In this document: piece by piece, positions 11 to 34,314 of the stretch
How positions within the stretch are numbered: the first letter of the stretch is position 1
How the letters are laid out: each line of letters begins with the position of its first letter
Source: a virus
Reading direction: 5' to 3' (one strand)
Length of the DNA stretch: 43,573 nucleotides
IMG/VR virus record: IMGVR_UViG_3300031696_000016
Coordinates: 1-43,573 of that record
Made by a program: the position numbers and the translations under genes
The notes under the pieces: model-generated
Databases searched by the model: none
The model's input: only the letters and a program-made list of their open reading frames with translations
What the model was told of the DNA's origin: nothing

Positions 11-29
11 CTGAGAGAAAACCCTTAGT

Positions 30-56
30 GTTCCTATAAGGTACTTAAAAGATTAC
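30..56 (-). promoter_or_regulatory. Putative leftward promoter for the T7-like RNA polymerase
   Basis: On the minus strand this reads GTAATCTTTTAAGTACC then TTATAGGAAC. The 16-base core recurs exactly before the rIIA operon (3143-3158) and before the operon at 7838 (7790-7805), both on the plus strand. The TTTTA-(7 nt)-TATAG arrangement resembles SP6- and T7-class promoters, which suits the phage-encoded T7-like polymerase. It points left, out of the window. If the genome map closes on itself, it faces the leftward late genes whose 5' end lies beyond base 43573. Repetition is seen; promoter function is inferred. Confidence 0.5.
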
Positions 57-412: not shown

Positions 413-557
413 CATACTAAAGACATTGACTAATAGTGTACTCAGACATGTCTCACTTCGTGAGCCAGAGCTGTCTGACTTAGTTCATACTAAAGACATT
501 GACTAATAATATACTCAGACATGTCTCACTTCGTGAGCCAGAGCTGTCTGACTTAGT
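413..557. repeat. 72-bp tandem direct repeat with internal hairpins
   Basis: Bases 413-484 are repeated at 486-557 with two mismatches and a 1-bp spacer. Each copy contains CATTGACTAATA, then an outer inverted pair (CAGACA / TGTCTG) enclosing a small hairpin CTCAC-TTC-GTGAG (452-464 in the first copy). Near-identity implies a recent or conserved duplication. There is no ORF in it. It sits just upstream of the first early hairpin promoter (566-588), so a role in transcription or replication control is plausible but not shown. Confidence 0.85.
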
Positions 558-565
558 ATTGACTT

Positions 566-588
566 GGAGCCTTTGGCTCCTTTAAGGT
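566..588 (+). promoter_or_regulatory. Putative early hairpin promoter 1 (virion RNAP type)
   Basis: GGAGCC (566-571), loop TTT (572-574) and GGCTCC (575-580) form a 6-bp stem with a 3-nt loop, followed by TTTAA and GG at 586. The known N4 virion-RNAP promoter has a 5-bp stem, a 3-nt loop purine-rich on the template strand, a short T-tract and a GG start about 11 nt from the loop centre. Here the template loop is AAA and the spacing is 13. It lies 42 bp before the first early gene and is related to the sites at 868 and 1321. A second small hairpin, GGTACT/AGTACC (586-603), follows directly. Confidence 0.5.
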
Positions 589-867: not shown

Positions 868-897
868 TACGGCCAGAGCCTTTGGCTCCTATTGGGT
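868..897 (+). promoter_or_regulatory. Putative early hairpin promoter 2 (virion RNAP type)
   Basis: GAGCC (876-880), loop TTT and GGCTC (884-888) are followed by CTATT and GGG at 894-896, 12 nt from the loop centre. The 30 bases 868-897 match 1321-1350 at 28 positions, including the GGGT after the hairpin. A dedicated terminator (822-850) lies directly upstream, so this hairpin is not needed to end transcription. Its position 28 bp before a gene start, and the conserved GGGT downstream, favour a promoter. Confidence 0.6.
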
Positions 898-1320: not shown

Positions 1321-1350
1321 TACGGCCAGAGCCTTCGGCTCCTTTTGGGT
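1321..1350 (+). promoter_or_regulatory. Putative early hairpin promoter 3 (virion RNAP type)
   Basis: GAGCC (1329-1333), loop TTC and GGCTC (1337-1341) are followed by CTTTT and GGG at 1347-1349, 12 nt from the loop centre; the template-strand loop is GAA. This is the closest match to the published N4 promoter layout of 5-bp stem, 3-nt loop, TTTT and GG. It shares 28 of 30 bases with 868-897. Because it has TTTT and follows the DUF2493 gene, it could also serve as that gene's terminator. Confidence 0.55.
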
Positions 1351-17849: not shown

Positions 17850-19477
17850 TGGGTGCAACATTCACTAAGCACTACCCATGTGTACATTGTGGGTCTTCAG
17901 ATGCAGTAGCACTATGGTCCAATGGAAGAGGTAAATGTTTTGCATGTAATAAGCCAGCATTCCTAGATCAATATGATGACACAGTCGTGTCAAAGTTTAA
18001 CCCCAATACCGAACGAGAGTATGATATGAGTGGCGATTCACTTCAAGATATAAACAACTATGATAGTGCAGGTGTACGTGAACGTGGTCTTACTAAGACT
18101 GCATGTGATGAGTATGATATGAAAGTGTCTTACGATTCTAACGGAACAATTAATGCACACTACTACCCATACACAGTTAAAGGTAAGGTGGTTGCATACA
18201 AGAAAAGAACTTTACCTAAAGAGTTCCGAGTTGTAGGTGACCTTAAGAACGCTAAGCTTGAACTGTTTGGTCAGTCTAAGTTCCAACCCGGTGGTTTCAA
18301 GGTGATCATAACTGAGGGTGAGCTGGACGCTATTGCAGTACAGCAAGCTATGCTTAACAAGTACAAGAAAGTATACCCTGTAGTATCCCTACCATCCTCA
18401 TCTAACATGAAGATACTTGTAGCTAACAGAGATTGGTTACGATCGTTCAAGGAAGTCATCTTAATGTTTGATCAAGATGAAGCTGGTGAAAAAGCAGTAG
18501 CAGAAGCAGCTAAGATAATTGGTTGGGATAAAACTAAAGTAGCATCCCTGTCTTCCAATGATCCCTGTGATGCTCTGATAGCTAACCCATCTGAGATCAT
18601 AAGCTCTGTGTTCAGTGCAAGAAGCTACACACCTGCAGCTATTGTACGTGGTGAAGCTATCTGGGAGGCATACGTTGAACGTAAATCTGTTGAGTCTATC
18701 CCATACCCTAAGTGTCTTGAAGGTCTTAACGATAAGCTAGATGGTATGCGTAAGGGTGAGATAGTCTTATTCACATCTGGAACTGGTTCAGGTAAATCAA
18801 CAATGATCAAAGAGATCATACTAGAATTGGAGGATAATACAGATGAAAGCATTGGGCTTGTATCTCTTGAAGAAAGTATTGGAGATTCTGCAGAGAAATT
18901 TATCAAGATGTTTACTCCTCCAGACCCGACTGTTGAGCAAGAGCGTAAAGCATTTGAAAGAGTATTTGGAAATGAACGTCTCATATTACTTGACCACAAT
19001 GGAGCTGTTTCAGATTCTAGTCTCATTGACCAAATCGAAAACCTATGCTTGCTTGGGTGCCAGTATATCATTCTTGATCATATCACCATCGCTGTATCTG
19101 AAGGGGCTGATGGAAAGACAGGTAACGAAGCCATAGATTCAGTCATGTCTGACTTACTTAAGATAGTCAAGAAGCATAACGTATGGCTGGGGTTAATCAG
19201 TCACCTTAGGAAGTCACAAGGTAGGTCCTTCGAAGAGGGACACCTCTCATCTATTGATGACATCAAAGGTTCAGGCTCGATTAAACAGATCAGCTTTGAT
19301 ATAATTACATTCTCTCGTAACTTAGTGGCAGAAGATGAAGATGAAAGAAACACAATTAAACTCCGAGTACTTAAGTCACGATTCACAGGACGAACTGGAG
19401 ACTGTGGTTCAGCATACTACGACACCAGAACCAACCGACTCAGAGGACAAGAGGACTTCCTCGAGTACACTGGATAA
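17849..19477 (+). CDS. T7 gp4-like primase-helicase
   Basis: 542 aa from ATG 17849 (AGGTGG 6 nt upstream); a GTG at 17840 would add three residues. A zinc ribbon (C11, C14, C30, C33) leads to a TOPRIM domain (ITEGELDAIAVQQA, then MFDQDEAGEKA). The C-terminal helicase has Walker A SGTGSGKST, QYIILDHITI as Walker B, and a DnaB/gp4-type end. It unwinds DNA and makes primers at the fork. The RNAP frame begins inside its 3' end. Confidence 0.95.
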   Translation: MGATFTKHYPCVHCGSSDAVALWSNGRGKCFACNKPAFLDQYDDTVVSKFNPNTEREYDMSGDSLQDINNYDSAGVRERGLTKTACDEYDMKVSYDSNGTINAHYYPYTVKGKVVAYKKRTLPKEFRVVGDLKNAKLELFGQSKFQPGGFKVIITEGELDAIAVQQAMLNKYKKVYPVVSLPSSSNMKILVANRDWLRSFKEVILMFDQDEAGEKAVAEAAKIIGWDKTKVASLSSNDPCDALIANPSEIISSVFSARSYTPAAIVRGEAIWEAYVERKSVESIPYPKCLEGLNDKLDGMRKGEIVLFTSGTGSGKSTMIKEIILELEDNTDESIGLVSLEESIGDSAEKFIKMFTPPDPTVEQERKAFERVFGNERLILLDHNGAVSDSSLIDQIENLCLLGCQYIILDHITIAVSEGADGKTGNEAIDSVMSDLLKIVKKHNVWLGLISHLRKSQGRSFEEGHLSSIDDIKGSGSIKQISFDIITFSRNLVAEDEDERNTIKLRVLKSRFTGRTGDCGSAYYDTRTNRLRGQEDFLEYTG

Positions 19478-21581
19478 CTCAGGTGGTATAGAAAAGATAA
19501 CAGAGTATATCAAGGAAAGATGTGAGGGTAATACCTTCCGTGGGAGGCCCCCAGAAGGGGCCAGATTGATCTCTTCAATGATCCCATATGGATGTAGCTA
19601 CGAGAAGCTATCTGTAAGGGCCGTAGCAGGTGCTGTGGCAGCTTATCAGAAGTCCCGAAGGTCATCAGCTAGCCCCTTTAAACTAACCGTCACATCGTCT
19701 GTGATAGGCTTACAGGTGCTGTCTGCTTTAGGTGTACTAAACACTAACCATCAAGAGATTTTAGCAGTAGGTGACCTATACCTAGAAGCTTTCTTTCAAC
19801 TGGGTTATATCCATATTGAAAGAGAGTACAAAGGGTTTCGTGCACCGTACATTATACAGTTGCTAAGCACATGGGCTACCCTTGGAGACCTACCACCTGA
19901 GTATGTAAGGAGTACGCTTATAGGTACGTCCTTTACACCACCAAAAGACATCGTGTCATTGCGTAATGAGTTCACCAAGAGGCCATACATTAAACGTATG
20001 AGTTCAGAGGAAGACTTTAAGCAGCTTATAGGAGCACCTTTTATCACTGCCCTTAACAAGCTACAGCAAACACCTTGGAGACTCAACAGTACAGTTGCCA
20101 AAGCCTTAGAGACTAACCTAGGATTGTTCATAGATCTTGAAGATGAGTCTATAAAAGCTAAATCAAAAGCTATAGAGATGAAGTTTGTCATGGCTAAGGT
20201 ACATGCCATAGGACTACGTGACTTCTATCAGATGGTAGAGTGTGACTATCGTGGACGTGTGTACTACACTGAGCCATTCCTAAACTTCCAAGGGTCTGAT
20301 GTATCTAAAGGACTCTTTGAGTTTGCTTATGCAAAAGCTATGGACACTGAGGGATACAAGTGGTTGTGCATACATACAGCTTGTTCTTATAATCAATCAT
20401 ATGAACTGGAGGAACTACCCGAATGGGCGACAGCGGACTACAAAACTTATCTTCAAGACGAAGGATTATCCACAATCTCAGTAGACAAGATGACCCTAAA
20501 GGATCGAGAGTTGTGGACCCTAAACAACCTGACTTGGATAAACCGATTAGCGGATGGACAAAGCTTCAGGACAGAAGCAGAAAAGCCCGTTAGCTTTCTT
20601 GCATGTTGCTTAGATGTGGCAGGTTATAACAATGCTGTACTAAATAATAAAGTACACATGAGTCGTACACCTATCCCGGTTGACGGGAGTAATAATGGTT
20701 GGCAACATCTGGCAGCTATCTCTAAAGACAAAGAAGCTGGTGAGCTTGTGTCCCTAGTACCAAGCGAAATACAGAAAGACTTCTATGTTCAAGTGGCTAA
20801 ACGTCTTATCGACAGGATGCCTGAGTGGTTTGCTGAACGTAACATACCAATGAAAGCTATCAGGAAAGGGATAGCTAAGCGTGGCTCCATGACAAGGGCT
20901 TACTCAGCTGGTCAGAAAAAGATAGCTGCTAACATGTACTACGACTGTAAGGTTGAAGGCTATGATAAGATGTACAATATCACTGAAGATGACTGTACCC
21001 CTCTGTCAAAGCAATTAATACTTGCAATCAATGACACATGCGTAGGACCCTTAAAGACCATGAAGTTTATACAGAAGATGACTGACCATATCTTATCAAC
21101 AGGTGAGACATGTACACGTTGGACAACTCCCTCAGGATTCCCAGTGTTGTATGAAGTGTGGAGGCAGAAGAACATCACTGTACGCAGTACCATCCGTGGT
21201 CTTGGTCAGATAGGTCACAGCATTAAGATACCTTACATCACTTCCAATGGAGATCTGTTGCCATGTAGGAGATCGTTTGCATCTGGATGCTCACCTAACT
21301 TTGTCCACTCAATGGACGCAGCGCACATGGCTAAAGTTATTCAGAGTTTCTCTGGAGACTTTGGAGCTATACATGATTCCTTTTCTACTCATGCATGTGA
21401 TGTGAATAAACTTGTTGACCACACCAAGTGGCAATTTGCTATGATGTACAACAGCACTAACTTCTTCACTGCTATAGAAGAGATGCTACTAGAAACCCGA
21501 GAGGGCTATGAACTTAAACAACCAGAGCTTGGTGACTTAGATATATCTGAGATCATATCTTCTGACTATTTCTTTTGTTAA
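19335..21581 (+). CDS. T7-like single-subunit RNA polymerase
   Basis: Up to 748 aa. The start is uncertain: ATG 19335 lies 143 bp inside the primase-helicase gene and the first 60 residues are low-complexity. Catalytic motifs are CDYRGRVYY (R306, R308), PVDGSNNGWQH (D450), RKGIAKRGSMTRAY (K511, K515, Y523) and IHDSF (D681). The end SDYFFC resembles the FAFA foot of T7 RNAP. It is about 135 residues shorter than T7 RNAP, mainly N-terminally. It sits downstream of the replication genes rather than at the early end as in T7, consistent with a middle/late transcription role. Confidence 0.95.
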   Translation: MKMKETQLNSEYLSHDSQDELETVVQHTTTPEPTDSEDKRTSSSTLDNSGGIEKITEYIKERCEGNTFRGRPPEGARLISSMIPYGCSYEKLSVRAVAGAVAAYQKSRRSSASPFKLTVTSSVIGLQVLSALGVLNTNHQEILAVGDLYLEAFFQLGYIHIEREYKGFRAPYIIQLLSTWATLGDLPPEYVRSTLIGTSFTPPKDIVSLRNEFTKRPYIKRMSSEEDFKQLIGAPFITALNKLQQTPWRLNSTVAKALETNLGLFIDLEDESIKAKSKAIEMKFVMAKVHAIGLRDFYQMVECDYRGRVYYTEPFLNFQGSDVSKGLFEFAYAKAMDTEGYKWLCIHTACSYNQSYELEELPEWATADYKTYLQDEGLSTISVDKMTLKDRELWTLNNLTWINRLADGQSFRTEAEKPVSFLACCLDVAGYNNAVLNNKVHMSRTPIPVDGSNNGWQHLAAISKDKEAGELVSLVPSEIQKDFYVQVAKRLIDRMPEWFAERNIPMKAIRKGIAKRGSMTRAYSAGQKKIAANMYYDCKVEGYDKMYNITEDDCTPLSKQLILAINDTCVGPLKTMKFIQKMTDHILSTGETCTRWTTPSGFPVLYEVWRQKNITVRSTIRGLGQIGHSIKIPYITSNGDLLPCRRSFASGCSPNFVHSMDAAHMAKVIQSFSGDFGAIHDSFSTHACDVNKLVDHTKWQFAMMYNSTNFFTAIEEMLLETREGYELKQPELGDLDISEIISSDYFFC

Positions 21582-22468: not shown

Positions 22469-25400
22469 TTAATCAGCTTCACGTAATGAATCTAAAGTAT
22501 ACTGATGCACATCCTTAACCTTAGCTCTGATCTTCTTACGACCTTCCTTTGCACGTAACCTTAGTTTCTCAAAGGACTTCGCAAGGTTCTTCACACCACT
22601 ATCGTTAAGAACTGCAAGTGATAACTGATATAGCTCCTTGTTTGTGATAAAATTCCAAGGTTCCTCAATCATACCCTCAGCTTTACTGTCAAGGCTATTC
22701 ACATAGTTAAGAGACCTATGCTCAAGTTCAGAAGAGTAGGTAGAACTATCACTGCCCATACCCTTCAGCTCACTGTAAACATACTTGGCATGGTTAGGGT
22801 CTGCAGGGAAGCCTGAAGGATTACCTTCTGCCAATGAACGTAGGTTCGCAAGGCCTCTGTGAGTAGCCTCACGGATACCTTTCTGCATCTCACCTATAAG
22901 GTCATAGTCTAATGTTGTGTCTAACCAAGCATCGTTTATAGCCTTATAAGCAGACCTAAATGAACCTGCATCTGTTATGATCTCATCATAGACAGGTATC
23001 AAGTAAGGGTCTCTTCCATTCTGGGAAGCACGAAGCTTAGCAAGGTACTTACCAGTGCCTAGTACAACAACAGATGAAGCATCGAAACCAATAGTAGTTT
23101 GAGCTAATACACCTTGACTTGCACCTAAACCTGCAACACCATTCCTATCGTACAATGCTGAGGTATCTATGTCATACGTTGATGTAATCGCAGACTTACT
23201 GGTACCACCTTCACTGATATAGATACCATCCTCACCTGCTGCAAACTTCTTCTTGTTAGTAACATCAAAGAACTGACCTTTCTCATTCCTCTTACGAGTA
23301 CGAGTAATAGCAGCAGACGCTAACTTAGCCTCAGTCATAACAGTACCACTGATAGATGTTTGCTGACCTGTTGGTTGTGTGTAGATGATAGGTTCATTTA
23401 CAAACCCAGCGACTTTCACATAACTCTTAAGCATATTAACATAGTTAACAACATCAGCACCTACAGTAGCCACAAGATTATTCATAAGGGAATCACTAAG
23501 AATCTTTATTGCCTTATCAGTTCCTATTTCACCAGCAAGAAGTCCTATCTCTGAGTTAGGGTTTGATATAACTGCCTTAACAGCATACTGTTTCATACTC
23601 TTTAAGTCTTGACCATAGACAAAAGTAAGAAGCGGAGGCTTGAGGAAGTTCTTCTTATCATCGGTGGCTAACTTAACCAACCTTGTGATCTTTATTGCAT
23701 CCTCAGGGCTAGCTTTACCTATCTCATCGACAGGGTTTGTCAATAAGTTGTGCTTCAGTAAGTCACGGGGGTCACCTGAAATACCTTCAAACTCAGCCAA
23801 TATCCTTGGGGAGTTCTCAGGTCTATACACACCTACTCGAGGCATCATATGTTCCTGACCTAACTGAGTCATAAGACCTGCAAGTCCGTTGGCAATACCA
23901 TCTTGTGCAACCATACGCATCTGAGTTGTGTACGGCTTACCAGACCTGTAGGATTGCATGTAACGTGCAAGCTCTGTAGTAGCTTCCAAGACGTTGATGA
24001 ACTCATCAGGATGAGCTTTGGCATTGGCATCTATAAAGTCCCTAGTGGCCTGTGAAAGGTCAGCTAAGATTGCTTTGAAGTCTTCAAGCTCTGCATTACG
24101 AAGTAAGTTATCAACACCCATGACACCCTGAGGTGTAGACTCAAGTTGCTTAAGGTCTCTTATAGCATTAGCATCTTCAAATGCTAGCAACCAATGTCCA
24201 ACCTCGATACCTATAGCCTCAAGGGATTTAAGCTCAGGGTCATTACCAGACTGCATACGTTTGATTGTATCACGGTACACCGCATCAGGTTTCAAACCAC
24301 CTACCTTAAGCAGGAAAGCAGCTATAGACACAACGATACCAAACTCTTCATCTGTATTAGACATAGGTCTTATACTGTAGAGATGTGGAGAACCAAGCAC
24401 CTGACGTACCATCTTGTGGTTCTGAGGGCTTATGTGGTGCTGATGCATAGTGACACGTGTATTGCCTAACTGTCGTTGAAAGGTAAAGCCTATCTGGTCA
24501 TTCTTGTAGTGAGCTAACGCATTAAGAACTTCCAGTTGGTTGGTGGCATGTTTCTTATACATACCATTCTGCCACTCAGGAGTTCTTGCAAGTTCTAAGA
24601 AATCAGATAGAGTTTTGACATCCATTATCAATAAGATATTATCACCATCGTTTGGAGAGTATCTACGTGCAGCTGAAAGCTTCTTCTTTGCCTCGTTTAG
24701 TTGGTACTCAATCTCGACAGGGATGTTACGTATCTTATCAATACGCTTATGTCCAACATCAAAGAAGTCTGATACAAAAGTAAGGTGGTTGTTAGCTACA
24801 CCTGCAGTAAGGTCAACAGAAGATGCTTCCTCCAGTGCAGAGATACCGAAGCCAAACGCAGCCTTACCACGAATACCCCCAACAACACTCTTAACATTAG
24901 AGTAGAACTTGATTGCATCAGTGATAACATCAACCTGACCCATATCATACTGAGCACCAGTTGTCTTCTTGGTACGTGTACTTGAAGCATACTTAGGCTG
25001 ACCATCCTTAGAAGTCTCCCCGATAATCGGAGGTACTCTAAACTTAGGTGGGGATACCTGACTACTACGTAACTGTAGTGCCTTACGACCTGTAGGTGTT
25101 AGGTTGTACAGTATAGGTTGAGCCTTACCGCCTATCATCTCTCCAACAGCATCAACATAGGATGGGTTGGCTTCCTTATAAGCATGTAGTGCATTGAAAC
25201 CTATGAGTTGATTAGCTTCTCTTGAGAACCTTTTAAACAACTTAGGATCAACTAGGGTATCCATGCCACCTTCACGTACCTGACGGAAACCCTGCCATGC
25301 ATCAGACACAGACCTACCGATATCAACAACAGTCCTTGCCTGACTCTCACTTGCAGCGTCCAGTATACCAATCTGCTTCATAACATCTTCAGGTAGTGTG

Positions 25401-26275
25401 TCAATGACCTCTTGTGGTATGAATGAACCACTGTTGTCAAGCATAGCTTCCACTACTACAAACGAATTGATAAGGTAGTCAGGGTCCATGCGGTACACCC
25501 TGTTGTCATTAGAAACAACAGATGCATCAAGTCCCTGAGGACCTACAAACAAAGACTCTTGTGTCAGTGCATACCTTCCATCTTGATCTAAGGTTGCCTG
25601 ACCTTCTTCAGGTGCTTTAATAAAACCAACATCAAGATCGAACACACTTGCCACACCCTTCTGTATTAATCCAAGACCACTTTCGTACTCAGCCTTAGCT
25701 TCCACAGGGTCAGGGAACCTGTCTGTGTTATCAAAGGATCTGGAAGTACCTATCAGGTCAAAGTCATTCTTAAGTCCTACTAAAGACCTTGCAACAACAG
25801 GGCCATGAACAGGACCCCATATCTTCATAAGATCCTGAGGACCTAAGTAACCAGAGTCTAGTTCAGGTGACGAACCACCTAAGTCAAAGCGTTGTTGCAA
25901 TGACTGTGGTGCTTCCATCTGCTCCTGCCTTTGCTCTAACTCCATAGGATTCAGGTTAGGTTGCATGTACTCAGCTGGTTCATTACCGAAATCCATACTG
26001 GTCTGATTAGGATCAGGTGCAACCCTTTGATCAATGTCTGCAGGGTCAGTGTCAACACCTCCCCATTGGACACCTGATGGTACTGGACCACCTCGCTCTG
26101 TTCCGGGTATGTGCATTTGCTTTTGTGGTGATGAGCTAAAAGGGGCAATCCCTTCGGGGCCTACTTGTTCAGGTGCATTATCAAACACACCCGCCCTCAT
26201 AAGGGCATCAGCAGTATCACTGCTTAGACCTCGCTTAGGTCCACTTTGCTTTAGAGCTGTATACTTACCAGCCAT
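22469..26275 (-). CDS. Putative virion-packaged single-subunit RNA polymerase
   Basis: 1268 aa. I chose ATG 26275 (MAGKYTALK) because GGAGGT lies 7 nt upstream; a TTG 15 bp earlier is part of that site. Ordered RNAP motifs are visible: GNTRV (R607) with PQN ten residues on, like RGRV...NPQG of T7; AQDGIANGLAG (D792); KKNFLKPPLLTFVYG (K875, K879, Y887), with the same -4/+8 spacing as T7 R627-K631-Y639; and PVYDEII (D1097), like the HD of motif C. The A-B and B-C distances (87, 218) lie near T7 (94, 181) and N4 (about 111, 281). The first 400 residues are Pro/Gly/Gln-rich, then unassigned. As the last gene of the ejection cluster, it is probably packaged and injected. Its length is close to the N4 mini-vRNAP core, not the 3500-aa N4 protein. 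Confidence 0.8.
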   Translation of the reverse strand: MAGKYTALKQSGPKRGLSSDTADALMRAGVFDNAPEQVGPEGIAPFSSSPQKQMHIPGTERGGPVPSGVQWGGVDTDPADIDQRVAPDPNQTSMDFGNEPAEYMQPNLNPMELEQRQEQMEAPQSLQQRFDLGGSSPELDSGYLGPQDLMKIWGPVHGPVVARSLVGLKNDFDLIGTSRSFDNTDRFPDPVEAKAEYESGLGLIQKGVASVFDLDVGFIKAPEEGQATLDQDGRYALTQESLFVGPQGLDASVVSNDNRVYRMDPDYLINSFVVVEAMLDNSGSFIPQEVIDTLPEDVMKQIGILDAASESQARTVVDIGRSVSDAWQGFRQVREGGMDTLVDPKLFKRFSREANQLIGFNALHAYKEANPSYVDAVGEMIGGKAQPILYNLTPTGRKALQLRSSQVSPPKFRVPPIIGETSKDGQPKYASSTRTKKTTGAQYDMGQVDVITDAIKFYSNVKSVVGGIRGKAAFGFGISALEEASSVDLTAGVANNHLTFVSDFFDVGHKRIDKIRNIPVEIEYQLNEAKKKLSAARRYSPNDGDNILLIMDVKTLSDFLELARTPEWQNGMYKKHATNQLEVLNALAHYKNDQIGFTFQRQLGNTRVTMHQHHISPQNHKMVRQVLGSPHLYSIRPMSNTDEEFGIVVSIAAFLLKVGGLKPDAVYRDTIKRMQSGNDPELKSLEAIGIEVGHWLLAFEDANAIRDLKQLESTPQGVMGVDNLLRNAELEDFKAILADLSQATRDFIDANAKAHPDEFINVLEATTELARYMQSYRSGKPYTTQMRMVAQDGIANGLAGLMTQLGQEHMMPRVGVYRPENSPRILAEFEGISGDPRDLLKHNLLTNPVDEIGKASPEDAIKITRLVKLATDDKKNFLKPPLLTFVYGQDLKSMKQYAVKAVISNPNSEIGLLAGEIGTDKAIKILSDSLMNNLVATVGADVVNYVNMLKSYVKVAGFVNEPIIYTQPTGQQTSISGTVMTEAKLASAAITRTRKRNEKGQFFDVTNKKKFAAGEDGIYISEGGTSKSAITSTYDIDTSALYDRNGVAGLGASQGVLAQTTIGFDASSVVVLGTGKYLAKLRASQNGRDPYLIPVYDEIITDAGSFRSAYKAINDAWLDTTLDYDLIGEMQKGIREATHRGLANLRSLAEGNPSGFPADPNHAKYVYSELKGMGSDSSTYSSELEHRSLNYVNSLDSKAEGMIEEPWNFITNKELYQLSLAVLNDSGVKNLAKSFEKLRLRAKEGRKKIRAKVKDVHQYTLDSLREAD

Positions 26276-26290
26276 AGGGTTTACCTCCAA

Positions 26291-29200
26291 TTATTTCCAT
26301 TGAGTAACTTCATATAGTCTATGTTTCATTGGGCCTAAAAACGGTAGACTTCCATAGAAACTCTTCATCATCTTAGCATCATCATCTTCAAAGTAGCCTT
26401 CAGCTATCCTGTAGAATCTCTCCACAGTTCCTGCTGCAGCTGCTTCACTTGCAACGTTATTCCACGTCCACTCTGTAAAGTCTCTGCTACTGCTACCATA
26501 AAGTGGTAATAGCATTGGACTACCTATGATACGCTCACCAGTACCTATAAGTCCTGAAGAGTAGATCATACGTAAAACCTTTTCCCTGTCTGTCAAATAG
26601 GGTGAGGGTTCTCCATACTTAAGCTCGTCTTTCATAGCCTGAGACAGGAATCCCATGAACAGCATTGTAGCTGCTGAAGCAAAGGTTGAGTAACGTAATC
26701 CCTTAGAGTACTTAAGACCATCCCACAAACGTGGTAACTGGTTAGCAGTAAACGCTGAGATATATCCATTGAACTGAGTAAGTAACATTAGATGTTGATT
26801 GCTATATGGTATAGGTCTGTTGAATGCATCTGGCATAGGCACTGCTTGGTTTATAAACCGACCAGCTCCTGTCAAGAAGTTACGTTCCCATGTAGACTGA
26901 TCAGCTTGTGACAAACCATCCCAACCAGATCTAGACTTTAAGAAGTTATTGATACGGGTGAATGAAGCTTTCTCAGAAGCTGTAAGCGAACGCCCATCTT
27001 TAACCTTCTTATTCAACTCTTCCATCCGCATTGTATCTTCATTCGTAAGGCTTGAGATATCAGGAAGACCTAGCATCTGGTTAGAGATACGGGTCATTGC
27101 TTCAACATCAATACCTAAGTCCTTAAGCATCTTACGTGATTCCATAAGTTCAGGTGTTGGTTCCTTACCCCTGTAACTCATTATGAGATCCATCTTATCA
27201 ATCAAGAAGTCATTAAAGAATGCAGCTCGTATGTTGCGGTGCATCTGTGTCTGATCTTGTAAGAAGTTAGACTTAAAGAATGCGTCTGCAATATGCTTAG
27301 TCAGCTGGTTAGTTTCAACCATACCTGTTGTGGTTGCTGCCCCTGTCTCTTGGAGACTAAGGCCTACCCTCTGGACAATAGTCTCAGGGGATCCTGCAAA
27401 CATCCTACGAGGATCTTTGACTGAACGTGCAACAGGTTCCTCTTTTGACTTAGCCTTATCCTTAAGCCCTAGTTTCTCAGCTGCACCAGATACCCTAGTG
27501 ATTTCACCAAGGTTAGCTGCGTAAGACGCAAGGGCTTTACCAGCTTGGTAACCTGCAAGACCTATGTTATCAACAAGGACTTTACGTGGTACACCATGGA
27601 ACAGTAGTCCAACCTCAGGGAAAGATGAGACAGCTGCCAGACCTAAGCCTTGCATTGCAGTAAGAAGAGTCAAATATTTCTGAGCTGTCTTTAAGTAGTA
27701 ACTGTCTATACGTTTGTAGTTACCTGACTCAGCATTGATAAGATTACGTACATGGAATGCAGCCTCATTAAACTGAGACTTAGCTTCTGCCTGACGTTCA
27801 GTATCAGTACCTGCTTTAACCATAAGACCTCTGTATAGGTTACGGAAAGCCTGATCCATCACCTCACCATTACGACCAAGGAACTTCATATGAGTCTGAT
27901 ATCGTGAAGACATACGAGACACTTCCTCAACGTTATTGAAGAAGTCTTGCTCAAGGAACTCATCAAAGAGTGCATTGTCAGATAGTCCAAGTGTACGTGA
28001 TTCATATTCAGATGGTGAGATACCACCCTCCATCACGTTAAACTCTTTGTTGTCATCTAAGACTGTATCATTGATGATGTTATCAGCTATCTTAGTTGCT
28101 TGGGTGTGTGACATACGATACTCTTTTGAAAGTAACTGAATGAACCTAGCCTTGTTAGCATCTATGTACTCACGCTTGAACCCCTTATGTCTGAACATAA
28201 AGTCTTGAAGGTTATGGATAAGACTCTTCTTGGCCTTTGCATTAACTTTATTAGTCTCTTCAAATACTCTGTTAAGCATTGCTTCGTACTTGATCAACGA
28301 ACTTTCTAAGGCTTCCCTGTTCTTAAGATACTTTGGGTCTATCTTATCCCAGTTGATCTTAGACATAGCCTGACGTACACCCATAGTCTTCACACCTTTT
28401 CGGTTCTTACGACCTGTGATAGGCGCTAACACTTCTTTGTAGAAAGCATTGATCATATCAGATGCATAAGCTTGCTTAGCTGTGGAGCTACTCAGTGGGT
28501 CACTGTCAAACTTCTTATAGTTATCAACTGCTTTACCTGAAAGAGTTTCATGTGAGGCTTGCTTAACCCTCTGGTACTCTGCAAAGTTACTTCCGTGGAA
28601 GATACCATGCCTTGTGTAACCAAAGACACTTAATAATCTAGCAGCTTCAGAGTCAACCTCAGCCAGCTTAATCATTGCCCGTGATGCAGAAGACCTGAAG
28701 AAGTTCTGGGGGTTCTTTATGAATTCCCAGATATCTTTAGCTCCAAGGAATCCCTCGGGGTTATTATTCCTGTGGGAATTTGCAGCTGATTCCATCATGC
28801 TATCGTTAGATGGCTTACGGCTTCCGTCCGAGTTGTATGCAGATGTACTTTTATCTTTACTGGATAAAGCAGCTTGCTCAACACGAACATTTGCAGAAGA
28901 CTGTAGATCATCAGCCCATTCATCATTAGAACGAACCTTACCCTGCCTCTTAAGTTCTTCTTCTTCGGCATAGTCAAACTTAGTGTTATACCTGTCAGCC
29001 TTAGATGGATCTAAATAGTCAGCGGTTGCACTCCAATCACCTACATCAAATGCAGTCTTGGGTACTGACAATGCACCACCCATGATACCTCCAGCAGCTA
29101 TTGCGTTTATCATACGGTTCTCAACTTCATCGAAGTTCCACTCTTTATCAGAGCCAAGCACAGCAGCTGTGTACTGTGTCATTTCCTGAAGTAGTTCCGT

Positions 29201-30613
29201 ACTACCTTCAAAGACAGCACCTCTTGAGAGCTGACCAGCAACCCTCTTAAATAAAGCACCCTTGACTACTTGATCTTGAGCAAACTTAAAACCATCTTTG
29301 GATAGTTTAGCAAGCTCTAGCTTAGCCATTGAAGCTATCTGCTTCTCAGCAGCAGCTTCTGTCATACCTTTGGCGGTAAGGTGCTTTATAAGTTCTGCCT
29401 TACCACTGCCAGTGAGGAACTGATTAGGACCTATGATACCTTTCAGGCCTAAGCGATCCGCAACCATCATCAGTGCACCAGCACCAATAGCAAGTGGTAA
29501 GTTCTTATCACTTATGTCACCTTCCATTTCATCTAAGACTAAGCCAGTGTACATCATACCTGTTGATGTTGCTCCTAGGGCACCTGCAGTTCCTACAGCA
29601 GCAGCTCCTGCACCTAATGCTCCAACCACAGGGGCAGCTGCCATACCTGCAATAGTCATTGTCATATATGGTAGTGAAGACCCGAAGATAGTTGCAAGGT
29701 AATCTGTTGATTCATTAAAGGAAGACCAATCAACCTGAGTTATATCTGATTGGAGCATAGGCATCTCTGCCATCTCCCTCTCAGCTGTGGCTACATCAGA
29801 TGCAAAGTAAGTTGAAGCATCTTCAAACCCAGCTTCATCAGCCATCTTCCACATAACCTGATCAAAACCTTTGCCGATACCCATCCATGAGACATCCCAG
29901 CTTGCACTCATTGGAGAGTATGCCATGCCCTCAGGATCAGCCCCATCTATACGAGTACGGATACCCTTGTATAGGTCTGGGTTAGCTGCGTACTCTTGCA
30001 TGTTAAAAGCCATAACCTTTTCGATAGGTATGCCACCAGAGTGTGCAGTCTCAGCAGAACGAAGTAACTTTGCAGCCTTCTCCCAATCTGATAACTTATC
30101 AAAGTTAAGGTCACGCATCTCACGTTGGTAGACACCACCCATATACACATCAGATCCATAGGGATCTGTAGTCTCTTTAGACTTACCCATGTATCCGGGG
30201 AGTGCCATACCAGATGCAAGCATCATGTCTGATAAAGCAACACCATCAGGATCATACAGTTCACCAAGTGAACGATCATGAGTGTCAAGCTCGTCACCTG
30301 CGGATACCTTTGTAAAACCATGTCTGTTGGCAAGATCCCAGATGTATTGTGTTGCCAGTTCACCACCAACTTCACCATGTTTAAAGCCAGCATCAGAACC
30401 TTCTGTTATGATTCTGCCAATCTCACGGGTATCAATGTTACCGACACGAACTCGTTGACCTGTCTTAAGGTTCTTAGCTGTATCGCCATCAATCAAGGCC
30501 CAATCGGAATCCCCAAGCCTATAGGAAGGTGCTTGAGATGATCCTTCCTCATCTCCAGTTTTGTAATCTTCAAAAACAGAAGACAAGGCCTCCATCGTAT
30601 CATCTCTAAGCAT
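26291..30613 (-). CDS. Large ejection protein with N-terminal SNase-like nuclease domain
   Basis: 1440 aa, starting after AAGGAATAAAAT. Residues about 30-145 match the staphylococcal nuclease fold: WALIDGDT (D42, D44), GQRVRVGNIDTREI (R56, D61, E64, exactly the R35-D40-E43 spacing of SNase) and DTHDRSLGELYDPDG (R114, like R87). Residues about 308-390 are Ala/Gly-rich and hydrophobic and could enter a membrane. The rest is long, helical and unassigned, ending in hydrophobic segments (YSTFASAATMLFMGFLSQAM). It is probably an internal virion protein, comparable in size and position to T7 gp16. It would reach the host cell, where the nuclease may act on host DNA. Confidence 0.75.
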   Translation of the reverse strand: MLRDDTMEALSSVFEDYKTGDEEGSSQAPSYRLGDSDWALIDGDTAKNLKTGQRVRVGNIDTREIGRIITEGSDAGFKHGEVGGELATQYIWDLANRHGFTKVSAGDELDTHDRSLGELYDPDGVALSDMMLASGMALPGYMGKSKETTDPYGSDVYMGGVYQREMRDLNFDKLSDWEKAAKLLRSAETAHSGGIPIEKVMAFNMQEYAANPDLYKGIRTRIDGADPEGMAYSPMSASWDVSWMGIGKGFDQVMWKMADEAGFEDASTYFASDVATAEREMAEMPMLQSDITQVDWSSFNESTDYLATIFGSSLPYMTMTIAGMAAAPVVGALGAGAAAVGTAGALGATSTGMMYTGLVLDEMEGDISDKNLPLAIGAGALMMVADRLGLKGIIGPNQFLTGSGKAELIKHLTAKGMTEAAAEKQIASMAKLELAKLSKDGFKFAQDQVVKGALFKRVAGQLSRGAVFEGSTELLQEMTQYTAAVLGSDKEWNFDEVENRMINAIAAGGIMGGALSVPKTAFDVGDWSATADYLDPSKADRYNTKFDYAEEEELKRQGKVRSNDEWADDLQSSANVRVEQAALSSKDKSTSAYNSDGSRKPSNDSMMESAANSHRNNNPEGFLGAKDIWEFIKNPQNFFRSSASRAMIKLAEVDSEAARLLSVFGYTRHGIFHGSNFAEYQRVKQASHETLSGKAVDNYKKFDSDPLSSSTAKQAYASDMINAFYKEVLAPITGRKNRKGVKTMGVRQAMSKINWDKIDPKYLKNREALESSLIKYEAMLNRVFEETNKVNAKAKKSLIHNLQDFMFRHKGFKREYIDANKARFIQLLSKEYRMSHTQATKIADNIINDTVLDDNKEFNVMEGGISPSEYESRTLGLSDNALFDEFLEQDFFNNVEEVSRMSSRYQTHMKFLGRNGEVMDQAFRNLYRGLMVKAGTDTERQAEAKSQFNEAAFHVRNLINAESGNYKRIDSYYLKTAQKYLTLLTAMQGLGLAAVSSFPEVGLLFHGVPRKVLVDNIGLAGYQAGKALASYAANLGEITRVSGAAEKLGLKDKAKSKEEPVARSVKDPRRMFAGSPETIVQRVGLSLQETGAATTTGMVETNQLTKHIADAFFKSNFLQDQTQMHRNIRAAFFNDFLIDKMDLIMSYRGKEPTPELMESRKMLKDLGIDVEAMTRISNQMLGLPDISSLTNEDTMRMEELNKKVKDGRSLTASEKASFTRINNFLKSRSGWDGLSQADQSTWERNFLTGAGRFINQAVPMPDAFNRPIPYSNQHLMLLTQFNGYISAFTANQLPRLWDGLKYSKGLRYSTFASAATMLFMGFLSQAMKDELKYGEPSPYLTDREKVLRMIYSSGLIGTGERIIGSPMLLPLYGSSSRDFTEWTWNNVASEAAAAGTVERFYRIAEGYFEDDDAKMMKSFYGSLPFLGPMKHRLYEVTQWK

Positions 30614-30616
30614 ATT

Positions 30617-32854
30617 TTATTCCTTCTTATTGATTGGTGGTATAAGTCCAAGATCTCTGTATACATTTATATTAAGACTCTCATAACTACTATGCTGTCT
30701 GCCCGGATCTGTAACAGATGTAAGCCACATGATGAAAGGTGAGGACTTGTTGGAGTCCTTAGCCTGTTTCTTCCAGAAGTCCATGTGGTTCGGGGGTATT
30801 GCATTGAAGCTCTTGTTAAGTTGTATGAGGATGTCAGCTTTGGTAGCTTCAGTTTTCATAGAATAAGTGAACTCTTCCTTCTGATCATCTGTAAGATCTG
30901 GTGAAGCTTTGACTACATCTATATAACCTTTCTGAACTTGATGAACCTTAGTAAGTTTCTCTGATAGTGTATTCATTGAATCTGAACCAACCACCTTACC
31001 TTCTGAATGATAGACAGACTTAGGTACTTGTGTCTTACCTGAGGTTATCATTGCCCGATCTAAGTGTCCCATCAATGAAGCTACTTTAACTTCCTCACCA
31101 TCAGCAACAGCTGAGGAGTACGACTCCATAGCTCGTCTGAGCATTGGAATACTCTTCTCAAGTCCATCAATGCCATAGGAGTCAGTGTACGAATCAACCA
31201 TCTGTTGTGACAGACCAGCTTCTTGGAACATCTGAGTAACTTTAGCAACGTTGTTCTCGTCATACATGCCATTACCATCAGCATCCTTAGTCTGAGATCT
31301 CAAGTTATTTAATACCTGATCTTGGATCTTATTGACACTGTCTGTTGCATCTAGCTTACGAGTCTGACGATCCTTCTCACCTGTAGCAGCAGGTCTCCAT
31401 CCTGTCTTGGAGACATCGATAGTGCCTAGCTTTGGGTGGTTCAGGAACTTACCGTTCTTAGATGCGTACACCTTCTGGAACTTACCATACTGATCAACAT
31501 AGTTAACAGTCTTAGACATATCAATATCATTATTCTCAGCAGACTTAGTAGCAGCTTCAGCTGAAAGGGCATCTGCATCAGCTTGGTTATCCCAACCTTT
31601 AATAAGAACACCACCAGCAGCCATACCTGAACCACTAGCGGAGTAACCCATAAGACGAGAACCCATGTAGTATACAAATGCATTCCTGATAGCAGTGTCA
31701 TCCCATAAGCTACCTAATCCTTTAGCCGCAAGGGACATAGCCTTATTAAGTGTCTCTCCATTAAAGAAACTATTTAGACCCTTATCACCAGTTTTCTTAA
31801 GTAATTCAATTGTTTCCTCATCTAAAGATCCAAGCTGTGGCGTTAACTTACTAGGGTCCATTCCTTTAGTCATACTGATAAGAGCAGCAGCCTCTTTGTC
31901 TTGTTGTACTTTATTAGATTTATCTATTAGATCTATATCTGTAAGCTTGTTTACAAGAGCATCTTTTCTGTCTAACCAACCTGAAGCTTTTAGTTTCTGT
32001 TGAGTAAGTTCTGGATTTCCAGCTACATAGAATTCTTGAATCTTCAAATCAAGTAGAGTTTGAACTTCTGCAAGCTCTTCCTCAACCTCACTCCTGTAAT
32101 CTGTAAGGTGATCTTTGGTTGGTGTATCATTAATTGCAGATAACTCCGCTTTAGCTTGGTTTATAAGTGAGGCACTTGCACCAGACTCTATTAATACATT
32201 GAGCTTCTCTTCAGCTAGACCAACCTCTTTTATTTTAGAGTTAGAATCTATTGCTGTCCTAGACATTATATCAGATTCAACAGACATAGTGCTTGAGGTC
32301 CAACCTTCTGGCCTGTTCTCATCAAGCCATACCTGACCATCTTCACCTTCAAACTCACCAACGTTAAGTGATTCACTGTGAAACAGAGCCTCTGCTCCAG
32401 CAGCAGGTGCTCCAAGCACAGAACCCAAGCTTATCTTAGGTGTCTTCCAAGGTAACTCCCACTTAGGTGGTGCACCGATACGTGCCTGTGCAGTTGAGCC
32501 AGTACCTGCACTAGCATTGTTTAAGCTTGGCACAACCTTACGACCAGTGGATTCAACAACAGGTACTGGTTGTTTACCTCGAGGAATTGATTGACCTTGA
32601 TTTCCAAGTCTCCAGTTAACCTTACCAGCATTCTTAGTTGTCTGTTCCACCATACCTGCAGCATTAGTAGGTCTTGCACTAGTCCTTGGTATTGCAGGTT
32701 TCTCATCTAAAGCAGGTACTGTGGGTGTGTCAGGTTTAAGGTTTTTATTAGCTGCATCTGCTGCCCAACGGGTCAGTTTATTATCGTTAGGTGTGTCAGG
32801 TTTTAAATCAGTATTACCACCGAAAGTATTTAACCATCTCTCCAATGCGTTCAT
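30617..32854 (-). CDS. Internal virion (ejection) protein, 745 aa
   Basis: It starts after GGAGGTAAGTA, one base into the preceding gene. The N-terminal 160 residues are Pro/Asn-rich and disordered, with LKPDTP twice (17-22 and 39-44). The middle is long-helical (about 200-330). DADGNGMYDENN (524-535) looks like an EF-hand calcium loop, with Asn at the last position. No catalytic domain is recognised. By size and order between the lysozyme-like and nuclease-domain proteins, it probably fills the T7 gp15 position of the ejection complex. Confidence 0.7.
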   Translation of the reverse strand: MNALERWLNTFGGNTDLKPDTPNDNKLTRWAADAANKNLKPDTPTVPALDEKPAIPRTSARPTNAAGMVEQTTKNAGKVNWRLGNQGQSIPRGKQPVPVVESTGRKVVPSLNNASAGTGSTAQARIGAPPKWELPWKTPKISLGSVLGAPAAGAEALFHSESLNVGEFEGEDGQVWLDENRPEGWTSSTMSVESDIMSRTAIDSNSKIKEVGLAEEKLNVLIESGASASLINQAKAELSAINDTPTKDHLTDYRSEVEEELAEVQTLLDLKIQEFYVAGNPELTQQKLKASGWLDRKDALVNKLTDIDLIDKSNKVQQDKEAAALISMTKGMDPSKLTPQLGSLDEETIELLKKTGDKGLNSFFNGETLNKAMSLAAKGLGSLWDDTAIRNAFVYYMGSRLMGYSASGSGMAAGGVLIKGWDNQADADALSAEAATKSAENNDIDMSKTVNYVDQYGKFQKVYASKNGKFLNHPKLGTIDVSKTGWRPAATGEKDRQTRKLDATDSVNKIQDQVLNNLRSQTKDADGNGMYDENNVAKVTQMFQEAGLSQQMVDSYTDSYGIDGLEKSIPMLRRAMESYSSAVADGEEVKVASLMGHLDRAMITSGKTQVPKSVYHSEGKVVGSDSMNTLSEKLTKVHQVQKGYIDVVKASPDLTDDQKEEFTYSMKTEATKADILIQLNKSFNAIPPNHMDFWKKQAKDSNKSSPFIMWLTSVTDPGRQHSSYESLNINVYRDLGLIPPINKKE

Positions 32855-34314
32855 TACTTACCTCCAAATCCTTTGACACCCGTTAGCTGATCTACAGCTG
32901 ACTGAGGTGTGGCATTAGCGCCTTTACCACCAGCAGGTGCTTTATAAGCTGGGTTCTGTGTGGGAAGTCCAATAGCATTTCCATTACCAGAAGTAACAGG
33001 TCTTCCAAACTGATCCATTAAGATGTTGTTCTGTGGTTGAGCAGGTATCCCAGCTGGCTCTCTGCCAAAAGGTGCTGCAAAGGCTTGACTGAATTCTTCA
33101 GCATGTTGTGGTAATGTGTTGTCAACATAACTGTACGCATTCATTCGACCACTCTCAGGCACATATGTCCTAGGTTCATTTAATAAAGTTTCAATCTCAG
33201 CAAACTGTGCTGGACCAGTGTCAAGTGGTTCTTTAGTTACAGTACCAGCAAGAGGGTACATTGGTTTAGGTTTTACTTGCATTTCCACACCCGGACTATA
33301 ACTGTCGACAGGTATCACCTTGTCTTCAACTAGTTGTTGTTGATGTGGTACAAGATTATCAGTCATATTGGGTAGATCATTTAAGTTTCTAAACTCTTTA
33401 AAATAAGCCTGAGCTTCTGGTGTTGCCATTTCATTCTCCGCTTTAGGTACAGTAGTCCCTTGTTCGGGTACTGGAATTTCTTGTGTTTTTATTGATGGTA
33501 CTTTTTGTTGTGGCATTTCACCAGTGGATAACAGCTCATCCATAAAACCTTGTACAGAATCGAAAGCATCACCAAAGAAGTTTGACTCTGTCGTCTTATC
33601 TTTTGCCCTCTGATCATAGATTTCTTTACTACGGTCTTGCATCTGTTGTATAATCTGAGGATCTGCTGATCTCTTTAAAGCCGCAGCTCTCCAATCAAAC
33701 CTTGGAATAAGACCCCTGTTAACACCATTGAAACCCTTAGCTTTGTTATATTCACTATGGTTAATGTGTTCAGCAGCAGCCTTATCAAACTCTCCATTGT
33801 TCACGTGAGTAACCCATTTCTGAGGAGTAACAACACCATCCTTAGTGTTAGTCAAGTCACCACGATAGGCAGAATCAACAAGTGCAAGTTGCACCTGAGG
33901 GTGTAGGTTTGCGTAGTTAGGTACAAGCTTCTTAGCCTGATCGGTCTTCTCTGTCATAGCCCTAAGTGGGGAAGCATCAGCTACATAATTACCTGTAAGG
34001 CCTACGCCTGTGGTTAAAATACCTGACCCATCTAAATAGAAGTTTGGATTGTAAGCCTCTTCACCAGAAAGATGAGAGAGTAACCCTTGGTATTCTTCTG
34101 TAACATCAGTATAAATTTCAGCTGTTTTTAACTTTGCAGCATTGCCCCTTAATGTACCACTCGGATCTAGAATTGGAACCTTACCTGCAGTTTCCATAGT
34201 ATCAAGTGCTGCTTTATTGGATGCCCAAGTGTCTTTAGTAGCTTTAACTTTATCTTTACCAAACGTGTCATCAAGCCTAGTTTGAAGATCTTTAATTTGT
34301 GTAGCAGTTGCCAT
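32854..34314 (-). CDS. Virion-associated lysozyme-like ejection protein
   Basis: 486 aa, starting after AAGGAGTATACA. Residues about 70-225 resemble a GH24 lysozyme: HLSGEEAYNPNFYLDGSGILTTGVGLTG (E85/86, D95, T101/102 as the E-D-T triad), then QLALVDSAYRGDLT and the NRGLIPRFDWRAAAL pattern with a repeat-cutting end. The remainder is Pro/Gln-rich and extended. It probably opens the cell wall locally during genome entry, as the transglycosylase of T7 gp16 does. It is separate from the lysis endolysin at 41319. Confidence 0.75.
   Translation of the reverse strand: MATATQIKDLQTRLDDTFGKDKVKATKDTWASNKAALDTMETAGKVPILDPSGTLRGNAAKLKTAEIYTDVTEEYQGLLSHLSGEEAYNPNFYLDGSGILTTGVGLTGNYVADASPLRAMTEKTDQAKKLVPNYANLHPQVQLALVDSAYRGDLTNTKDGVVTPQKWVTHVNNGEFDKAAAEHINHSEYNKAKGFNGVNRGLIPRFDWRAAALKRSADPQIIQQMQDRSKEIYDQRAKDKTTESNFFGDAFDSVQGFMDELLSTGEMPQQKVPSIKTQEIPVPEQGTTVPKAENEMATPEAQAYFKEFRNLNDLPNMTDNLVPHQQQLVEDKVIPVDSYSPGVEMQVKPKPMYPLAGTVTKEPLDTGPAQFAEIETLLNEPRTYVPESGRMNAYSYVDNTLPQHAEEFSQAFAAPFGREPAGIPAQPQNNILMDQFGRPVTSGNGNAIGLPTQNPAYKAPAGGKGANATPQSAVDQLTGVKGFGGK

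Follow-up and report, generated by a model that had tools for sequence, protein, structure and literature searches.

In a marine phage, the gene that ends the leftward late operon encodes, very likely (probability about 0.85), a compact virion RNA polymerase (vRNAP) of the phage N4 type: a 1268-aa protein that would be injected into the host and would start early transcription at DNA hairpins. That the protein belongs to the single-subunit RNA polymerase (RNAP) family, has the fold of that family and stands nearer to N4 vRNAP than to T7-like RNAPs is shown here by computation; that it synthesizes RNA is inferred. Because it is free of cysteine and encoded beside DNA-injection proteins, and because N4-style hairpins lie before the first genes, the phage probably injects its own RNAP.

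The window, by which we mean the whole stretch of DNA analysed, is a 43,573-base virus record from a marine phage with a cultured relative, roseophage CRP-7. Plus-strand genes, among them those for ribonucleotide reductase, DNA polymerase, primase-helicase and a T7-like RNAP, extend from about 0.6 to 22.4 kb, and minus-strand late genes occupy 22.5-43.5 kb. The candidate vRNAP gene is the final gene of the late operon and is convergent with the replication operon; genes for proteins of 1440, 745 and 486 aa precede it in the same operon (Table 1), the 745-aa product having found no family match in profile searches. The sequence-only reading had assigned the gene to 22469-26275 with a product of 1268 aa, placed it last in the ejection block, and noted a separate T7-like RNAP at 19335. 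These claims held: the gene is located on the minus strand, both the operon layout and the gene order shared with CRP-7 and N4 bear out its final position, and the other polymerase matches Pfam RNA_pol (E 4.7e-52). The segment 36000-43573 lacks genes of portal, capsid or terminase size. Since head genes are missing here and present in CRP-7 (58 kb), the record looks like a fragment cut within the late operon.

Table 1. Positions in the window of the candidate vRNAP, its motifs, neighbouring genes and left-end elements
Feature	Position	Strand	Remarks
GTGTTCCTATAAGGTACTTAAAAGATTA, candidate promoter of the T7-like RNAP	28..55	+	four related contigs have it in pairs at the left end
Hairpin CTCAC-TTC-GTGAG	452..464	+	within first 73-nt repeat
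Hairpin CTCAC-TTC-GTGAG	525..537	+	within second 73-nt repeat
Hairpin GGAGCC-TTT-GGCTCC, candidate vRNAP promoter before ORF 630	566..580	+	AGG at loop centre +12; conserved in L186
Hairpin GAGCC-TTT-GGCTC	876..888	+	GGG at centre +12; between terminator 822-843 and ORF 926
Hairpin GAGCC-TTC-GGCTC, before ORF 1439	1329..1341	+	GGG at centre +12; also terminator-like
Separate T7-like single-subunit RNAP, 748 aa, 15 cysteines	19335..21581	+	Pfam PF00940, E 4.7e-52
Candidate compact virion RNAP, 1268 aa	22469..26275	-	ATG at 26275, stop at 22469
Codon D1097, motif C (Y/F-D; VYDE in the window)	22985..22987	-	invariant
Motif B, K879 to Y887 (KKNFLKPPLLTFVYG)	23615..23641	-	K879, T884, Y887 invariant
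Codon D792, motif A (DGIANG)	23900..23902	-	invariant
Codon R607, TxxR motif (GNTR)	24455..24457	-	followed by K621 and R624, aligned with N4 K437 and R440
Large ejection-type protein, 1440 aa, no cysteine	26291..30613	-	phrog_6958 virion structural protein, E 3.5e-12
Ejection-type protein, 745 aa, no cysteine	30617..32854	-	assigned on position and cysteine absence
Virion-type protein, 486 aa, no cysteine, endolysin-like stretch at 77-230	32854..34314	-	phrog_7 endolysin, E 1e-5

Homologues of the candidate were gathered from IMG/VR, both directly and by way of the neighbouring T7-like RNAP. The groups of the family are too divergent for reliable alignment with each other; the alignment used here (A4) comprises 36 sequences, all but one of them, a close relative, only 16-38% identical to the window protein. 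Residues R607, R624, D792, G793, G797, K879, T884, Y887, G888, D1065, D1097 and N1114 are invariant in A4, and as these columns include the catalytic positions of T7 and N4 the motifs amount to more than chance. When 44 representatives are considered, D792, Y887 and D1097 are present in every one and R607 in 43. The K621 column of A4 has K in 28 members and H in 8. The sequence ExDGxxxG, described as an N4-vRNAP motif (PMC10654107), is found in 28 of the 36; the window protein reads AQDGIANG, with A where the motif has E. The sequence-only reading had recognized four single-subunit RNAP motifs, a claim which held for R607, D792, K879, Y887 and D1097. It failed for K875, proposed as a motif B residue at the position of T7 R627, where the homologues have D, A, K, R or N; and the YD of motif C, which had been considered divergent, is instead close to the N4 form (IFDG in N4, IYDA or IFDA in the candidate's family).

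Conventional searches detect this relationship weakly or not at all. The T7-type RNAP profile PHROG 414 matches the window protein at E 1.3e-5 and 9 of 20 homologues, at best with E 7.7e-9. Pfam has no match for the window protein. The PDB returned nothing to plain sequence searches, whether the query was the protein or its profiles, and 50,697 phage records returned nothing to tblastn queries with the protein or with two distant family members.

Structure prediction, suggested in the earlier reading as a check on the polymerase assignment, yielded a model with the cupped right-hand polymerase fold that matches both N4 mini-vRNAP and T7 RNAP. The AlphaFold2 model covers residues 122-1268, the N-terminal ~120 aa having been omitted, with mean pLDDT 80.5 and pTM 0.77; the polymerase fold lies in 122-1268, with the catalytic motifs at 600-1120. 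The top Foldseek match in the PDB is N4 mini-vRNAP (3c46, E 7.4e-13, probability 1.00), followed by T7 RNAP (1s76, E 8.4e-13) and, lower down, mitochondrial RNAPs; matches in BFVD are to vRNAPs of N4-like phages and to T7-like RNAPs. The TM-scores are moderate (0.36-0.45), so that the conclusion as to fold rests on the E-values and not on close superposition. Foldseek ranks the N4 and T7 enzymes about equal. Profile comparison by hhalign, in which E-values refer to single comparisons, separates them: A4 aligns with nine N4-type vRNAP domains at E 2.6e-13 (probability 98%) and with sixteen T7-like RNAPs of the same phages at E 4.5e-6, while these T7-like RNAPs compared directly with the N4-type vRNAPs reach only E 0.071. 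Finer details shared with N4 are the spacing of the K/R pair after TxxR (K621/R624 in the window protein, K437/R440 in N4, where these residues hold the initiating nucleotide; PMC4496689) and an Asn at +17 from the motif C Asp (D1097-N1114 and D951-N968).

For packaging of the protein and its threading through the tail, the strongest hint in the sequence is the lack of cysteine; packaging itself is inferred, no proteomics data being available. Zero cysteine is found in 86 of 87 members of the family, whose mean length is 1217 aa and in each of which about 20 would be expected from the composition of phage early proteins. N4 gp50 (3500 aa), gp51 and gp52 likewise have none, whereas the T7-like RNAPs have 8-16.

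The comparison with N4 extends to gene order. In N4 the gene for gp50 closes a leftward late operon, adjoins gp51 and gp52, and converges with the replication operon; the window has an equal layout. With N4 gp50 (mini-vRNAP, residues 998-2103) and the vRNAPs of Schitoviridae the window protein shares the fold, TxxR and the K/R pair, motif B and an F/Y-D motif C, and most of its family also has ExDGxxxG; with N4 gp50 the window protein also shares its place at the end of the late operon, the absence of cysteine, and triloop hairpins at the left genome end. The two also differ. At 1268 aa the window protein is about one third as long as gp50, too short to hold the large domains found at both the N and C termini of the N4 protein, and shows no BLAST-level similarity to gp50; it falls outside the range of 2,842-3,820 aa of the Schitoviridae reference vRNAPs (PMC10654107) and so fails the size criterion for giant vRNAPs. 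The R22Y vRNAP is 2,083 aa (PMC11705849). The window phage also has a genome smaller than that of N4, and a one-chain T7-like RNAP in place of the N4 RNAPII heterodimer. With T7-like single-subunit RNAPs (PF00940, phrog_414) the window protein shares superfamily, order of motifs and weak profile matches; unlike them it is cysteine-free and nearer N4, and the same genome carries a separate T7-like copy. A vRNAP has been suggested before in non-N4 podophages, namely StenR_269 and Zobellviridae (PMC10747016), a proposal which rested only on size, helix content and absence of cysteine, with no motifs, confident fold or promoters shown.

Promoters of N4 vRNAP must form a hairpin whose 3-nt loop is closed by a C-G pair and has G..A on the template strand; the enzyme reads the -11 purine and -10G (PMC4496689). 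We scanned for C-TNC-G hairpins with stems of at least 5 bp (strict) and, in a relaxed version, admitted the TTT loop as well. On the plus strand over the first 20 kb of the N4 genome, the strict scan returns P1, P2 and P3 and nothing else. In the window it returns the hairpins at 452, 525 and 1329; those at 566 and 876 appear once the TTT loop is admitted. The leftmost 1.4 kb contains all five. The rest of the plus strand has no such hairpin, and the minus strand has one. The first 1500 bases thus hold five where 0.04 are expected, a number reached in 0 of 5000 shuffles; the strict count, three against 0.017 expected, is the fairer measure since the loop classes were chosen partly after the data had been seen. 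The existence and clustering of the hairpins are therefore shown; their use as promoters is inferred, with three of the five strictly satisfying the N4 demands on the closing pair (C-G) and the template loop (GNA), and those at 566 and 876 having AAA as template loop. The GAGCC hairpins stand directly upstream of ORFs 630, 926 and 1439, with a likely start, RGG, at +12 from the loop centre, as against GG at +11 in N4; the -8G of N4 is not retained at the window hairpins.

Relatives vary in this respect. The GAGCC hairpins are conserved in one (G001), another (G005) has one of equal geometry, and in the distant relative G009 the N4 P1 hairpin, GTTGCTTCGCAAC (GTTGC-TTC-GCAAC), is present four times. 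In the stretches examined, G002 and G003 have no perfect hairpin of the N4-promoter type and CRP-7 has no clear hairpin promoters. The CTCAC hairpins of the window are each contained in a larger imperfect dyad within 73-nt repeats (413-557), of which there are two copies in the window and five in G001 (L186), with a loop change from TTC to TGC. Just to the left of these repeats, at 280-393, are iteron-like tandem 11-nt units (TAACATAGTCC).

We propose that the compact vRNAP is made late, from the ejection-protein operon, and that it would be packaged alongside the other cysteine-free ejection proteins. Threaded through the tail, it would reach the host together with the left end of the genome, which would enter first. 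There it would start the early genes at extruded DNA hairpins (stem 5-6 bp, 3-nt loop) in the left 1.4 kb, and the early operon would later yield the T7-like RNAP, which may then take over middle and/or late transcription. The idea of a second, virion-type RNAP, already put forward from the sequence alone, is supported by fold, profile-profile comparison, catalytic residues, operon position, lack of cysteine and hairpins; packaging and transcription have not been demonstrated by experiment and, like injection and the division of labour between the two polymerases, are inferred. The limits of this reading are the lack of proteomics and activity data, the variability of K875, and a window that is a fragment without head genes.

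The cultured relative provides a point of comparison. In CRP-7 (MK613349) the T7-like RNAP, gp30, is followed by the convergent gp33, gp34 and gp35; the genes for capsid, portal and terminase come later on that late strand. CRP-7 gp33, annotated as hypothetical, corresponds to the window protein in position, size and gene order; the CRP-7 paper, in the sections that bear on it, reports only one RNAP (PMC6918029). BLAST of the candidate against gp33 gave no meaningful match, and profile comparison was thus needed: the gp33 group aligns with A4 at E 2.7e-6, and its profiles found no match to T7-like RNAPs. Unlike the window protein, members of this group have R for the motif B K and a motif A D without the G; the R replaces the catalytic Lys in L011 (17862-21566), L103, L020 and L023. 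It is possible that the gp33 group represents an inactive or altered virion polymerase. Fold prediction for the CRP-7 type, from an alignment of only 8 sequences, reached pLDDT 36, for which reason the model was kept out of the fold search.

This CRP-7 sub-group gives some substance to the argument that the candidate is an ejected or structural protein that descends from a virion RNAP, has lost polymerase activity and serves only DNA entry, as does the location of these genes among those for ejection proteins. We consider this very unlikely: in the window protein's branch K879 and both catalytic Asp residues are invariant over 36 sequences, down to 16-17% identity, for which purifying selection on catalysis is the best explanation, and hairpins stand before the early genes. 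About as unlikely is an active second RNAP that is made late and works in the cell without being packaged. Some phages do have additional polymerases made after infection, and the gene does belong to the late operon; against this are the complete absence of cysteine, a trait common to ejection proteins and N4 gp50-52 and not to T7-like RNAPs, and the position within the ejection cassette, as in N4.

A more serious possibility concerns the hairpins, which might, whatever the protein does, be terminators, RNA structures or replication/packaging repeats instead of vRNAP promoters. One of them, at 1329, also scores as a weak terminator, the CTCAC hairpins are part of 73-nt repeats near the 11-nt tandem repeats, and perfect hairpins are absent from some relatives. 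On the other hand, the 876 hairpin, directly before a gene, is already preceded by a genuine terminator just upstream (822-843), no gene lies upstream of the first hairpins, U-runs in the hairpin tails are poor, the scan recovers N4 P1-P3, and G009 has its four N4 P1 hairpins. On these grounds we rejected terminators alone as the main reading.

Essentially all that is known of packaged single-subunit RNAPs that use hairpin promoters comes from N4-like phages, whose enzymes are giant. If marine phages combine a compact form with a T7-like RNAP, the strategy is broader than that, and a small natural enzyme becomes available for study. The family also opens to test how the N4 enzyme and its hairpin promoters arose, and the cultured CRP-7 is a direct experimental entry to it. 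We found no description of such a family in the open-access literature searched. One survey dropped all N4-vRNAP homologues shorter than 2,500 aa (PMC10654107), a cut-off by which the family would have been filtered out. We lean slightly towards a bolder reading, that a widespread unannotated lineage of marine podophages pairs a minimal N4-type vRNAP and hairpin promoters with a T7-like RNAP. If so, the N4 strategy predates Schitoviridae and reaches beyond them, and the giant N4 enzyme has grown from a compact ancestor of about 1,200 aa.

The T7-like RNAP gene is convergent with the candidate's homologue in nearly every relative with enough flanking DNA, and its product may have a promoter of its own. 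Two tandem copies of a conserved element, TGTTCCTATAAGGTACTTAAAAGATT, lie at the left end of L186, L187, L188 and L190, and the window begins inside the end of the first copy; we predict that this paired element is likely to be the promoter of the T7-like RNAP. In a bridging sub-group (L081, L082, L083) the virion-type protein has T7-like DGTQSG and HDS motifs, and an additional gene of ~668 aa is present downstream of the T7-like RNAP. An element resembling the paired one (TTCTTTAAGGTACTTAAAAGATC) occurs at about 7810 on the minus strand of the window, within the early region; it points leftward, against the direction of the genes there, and the relatives L189 and L200 retain it.
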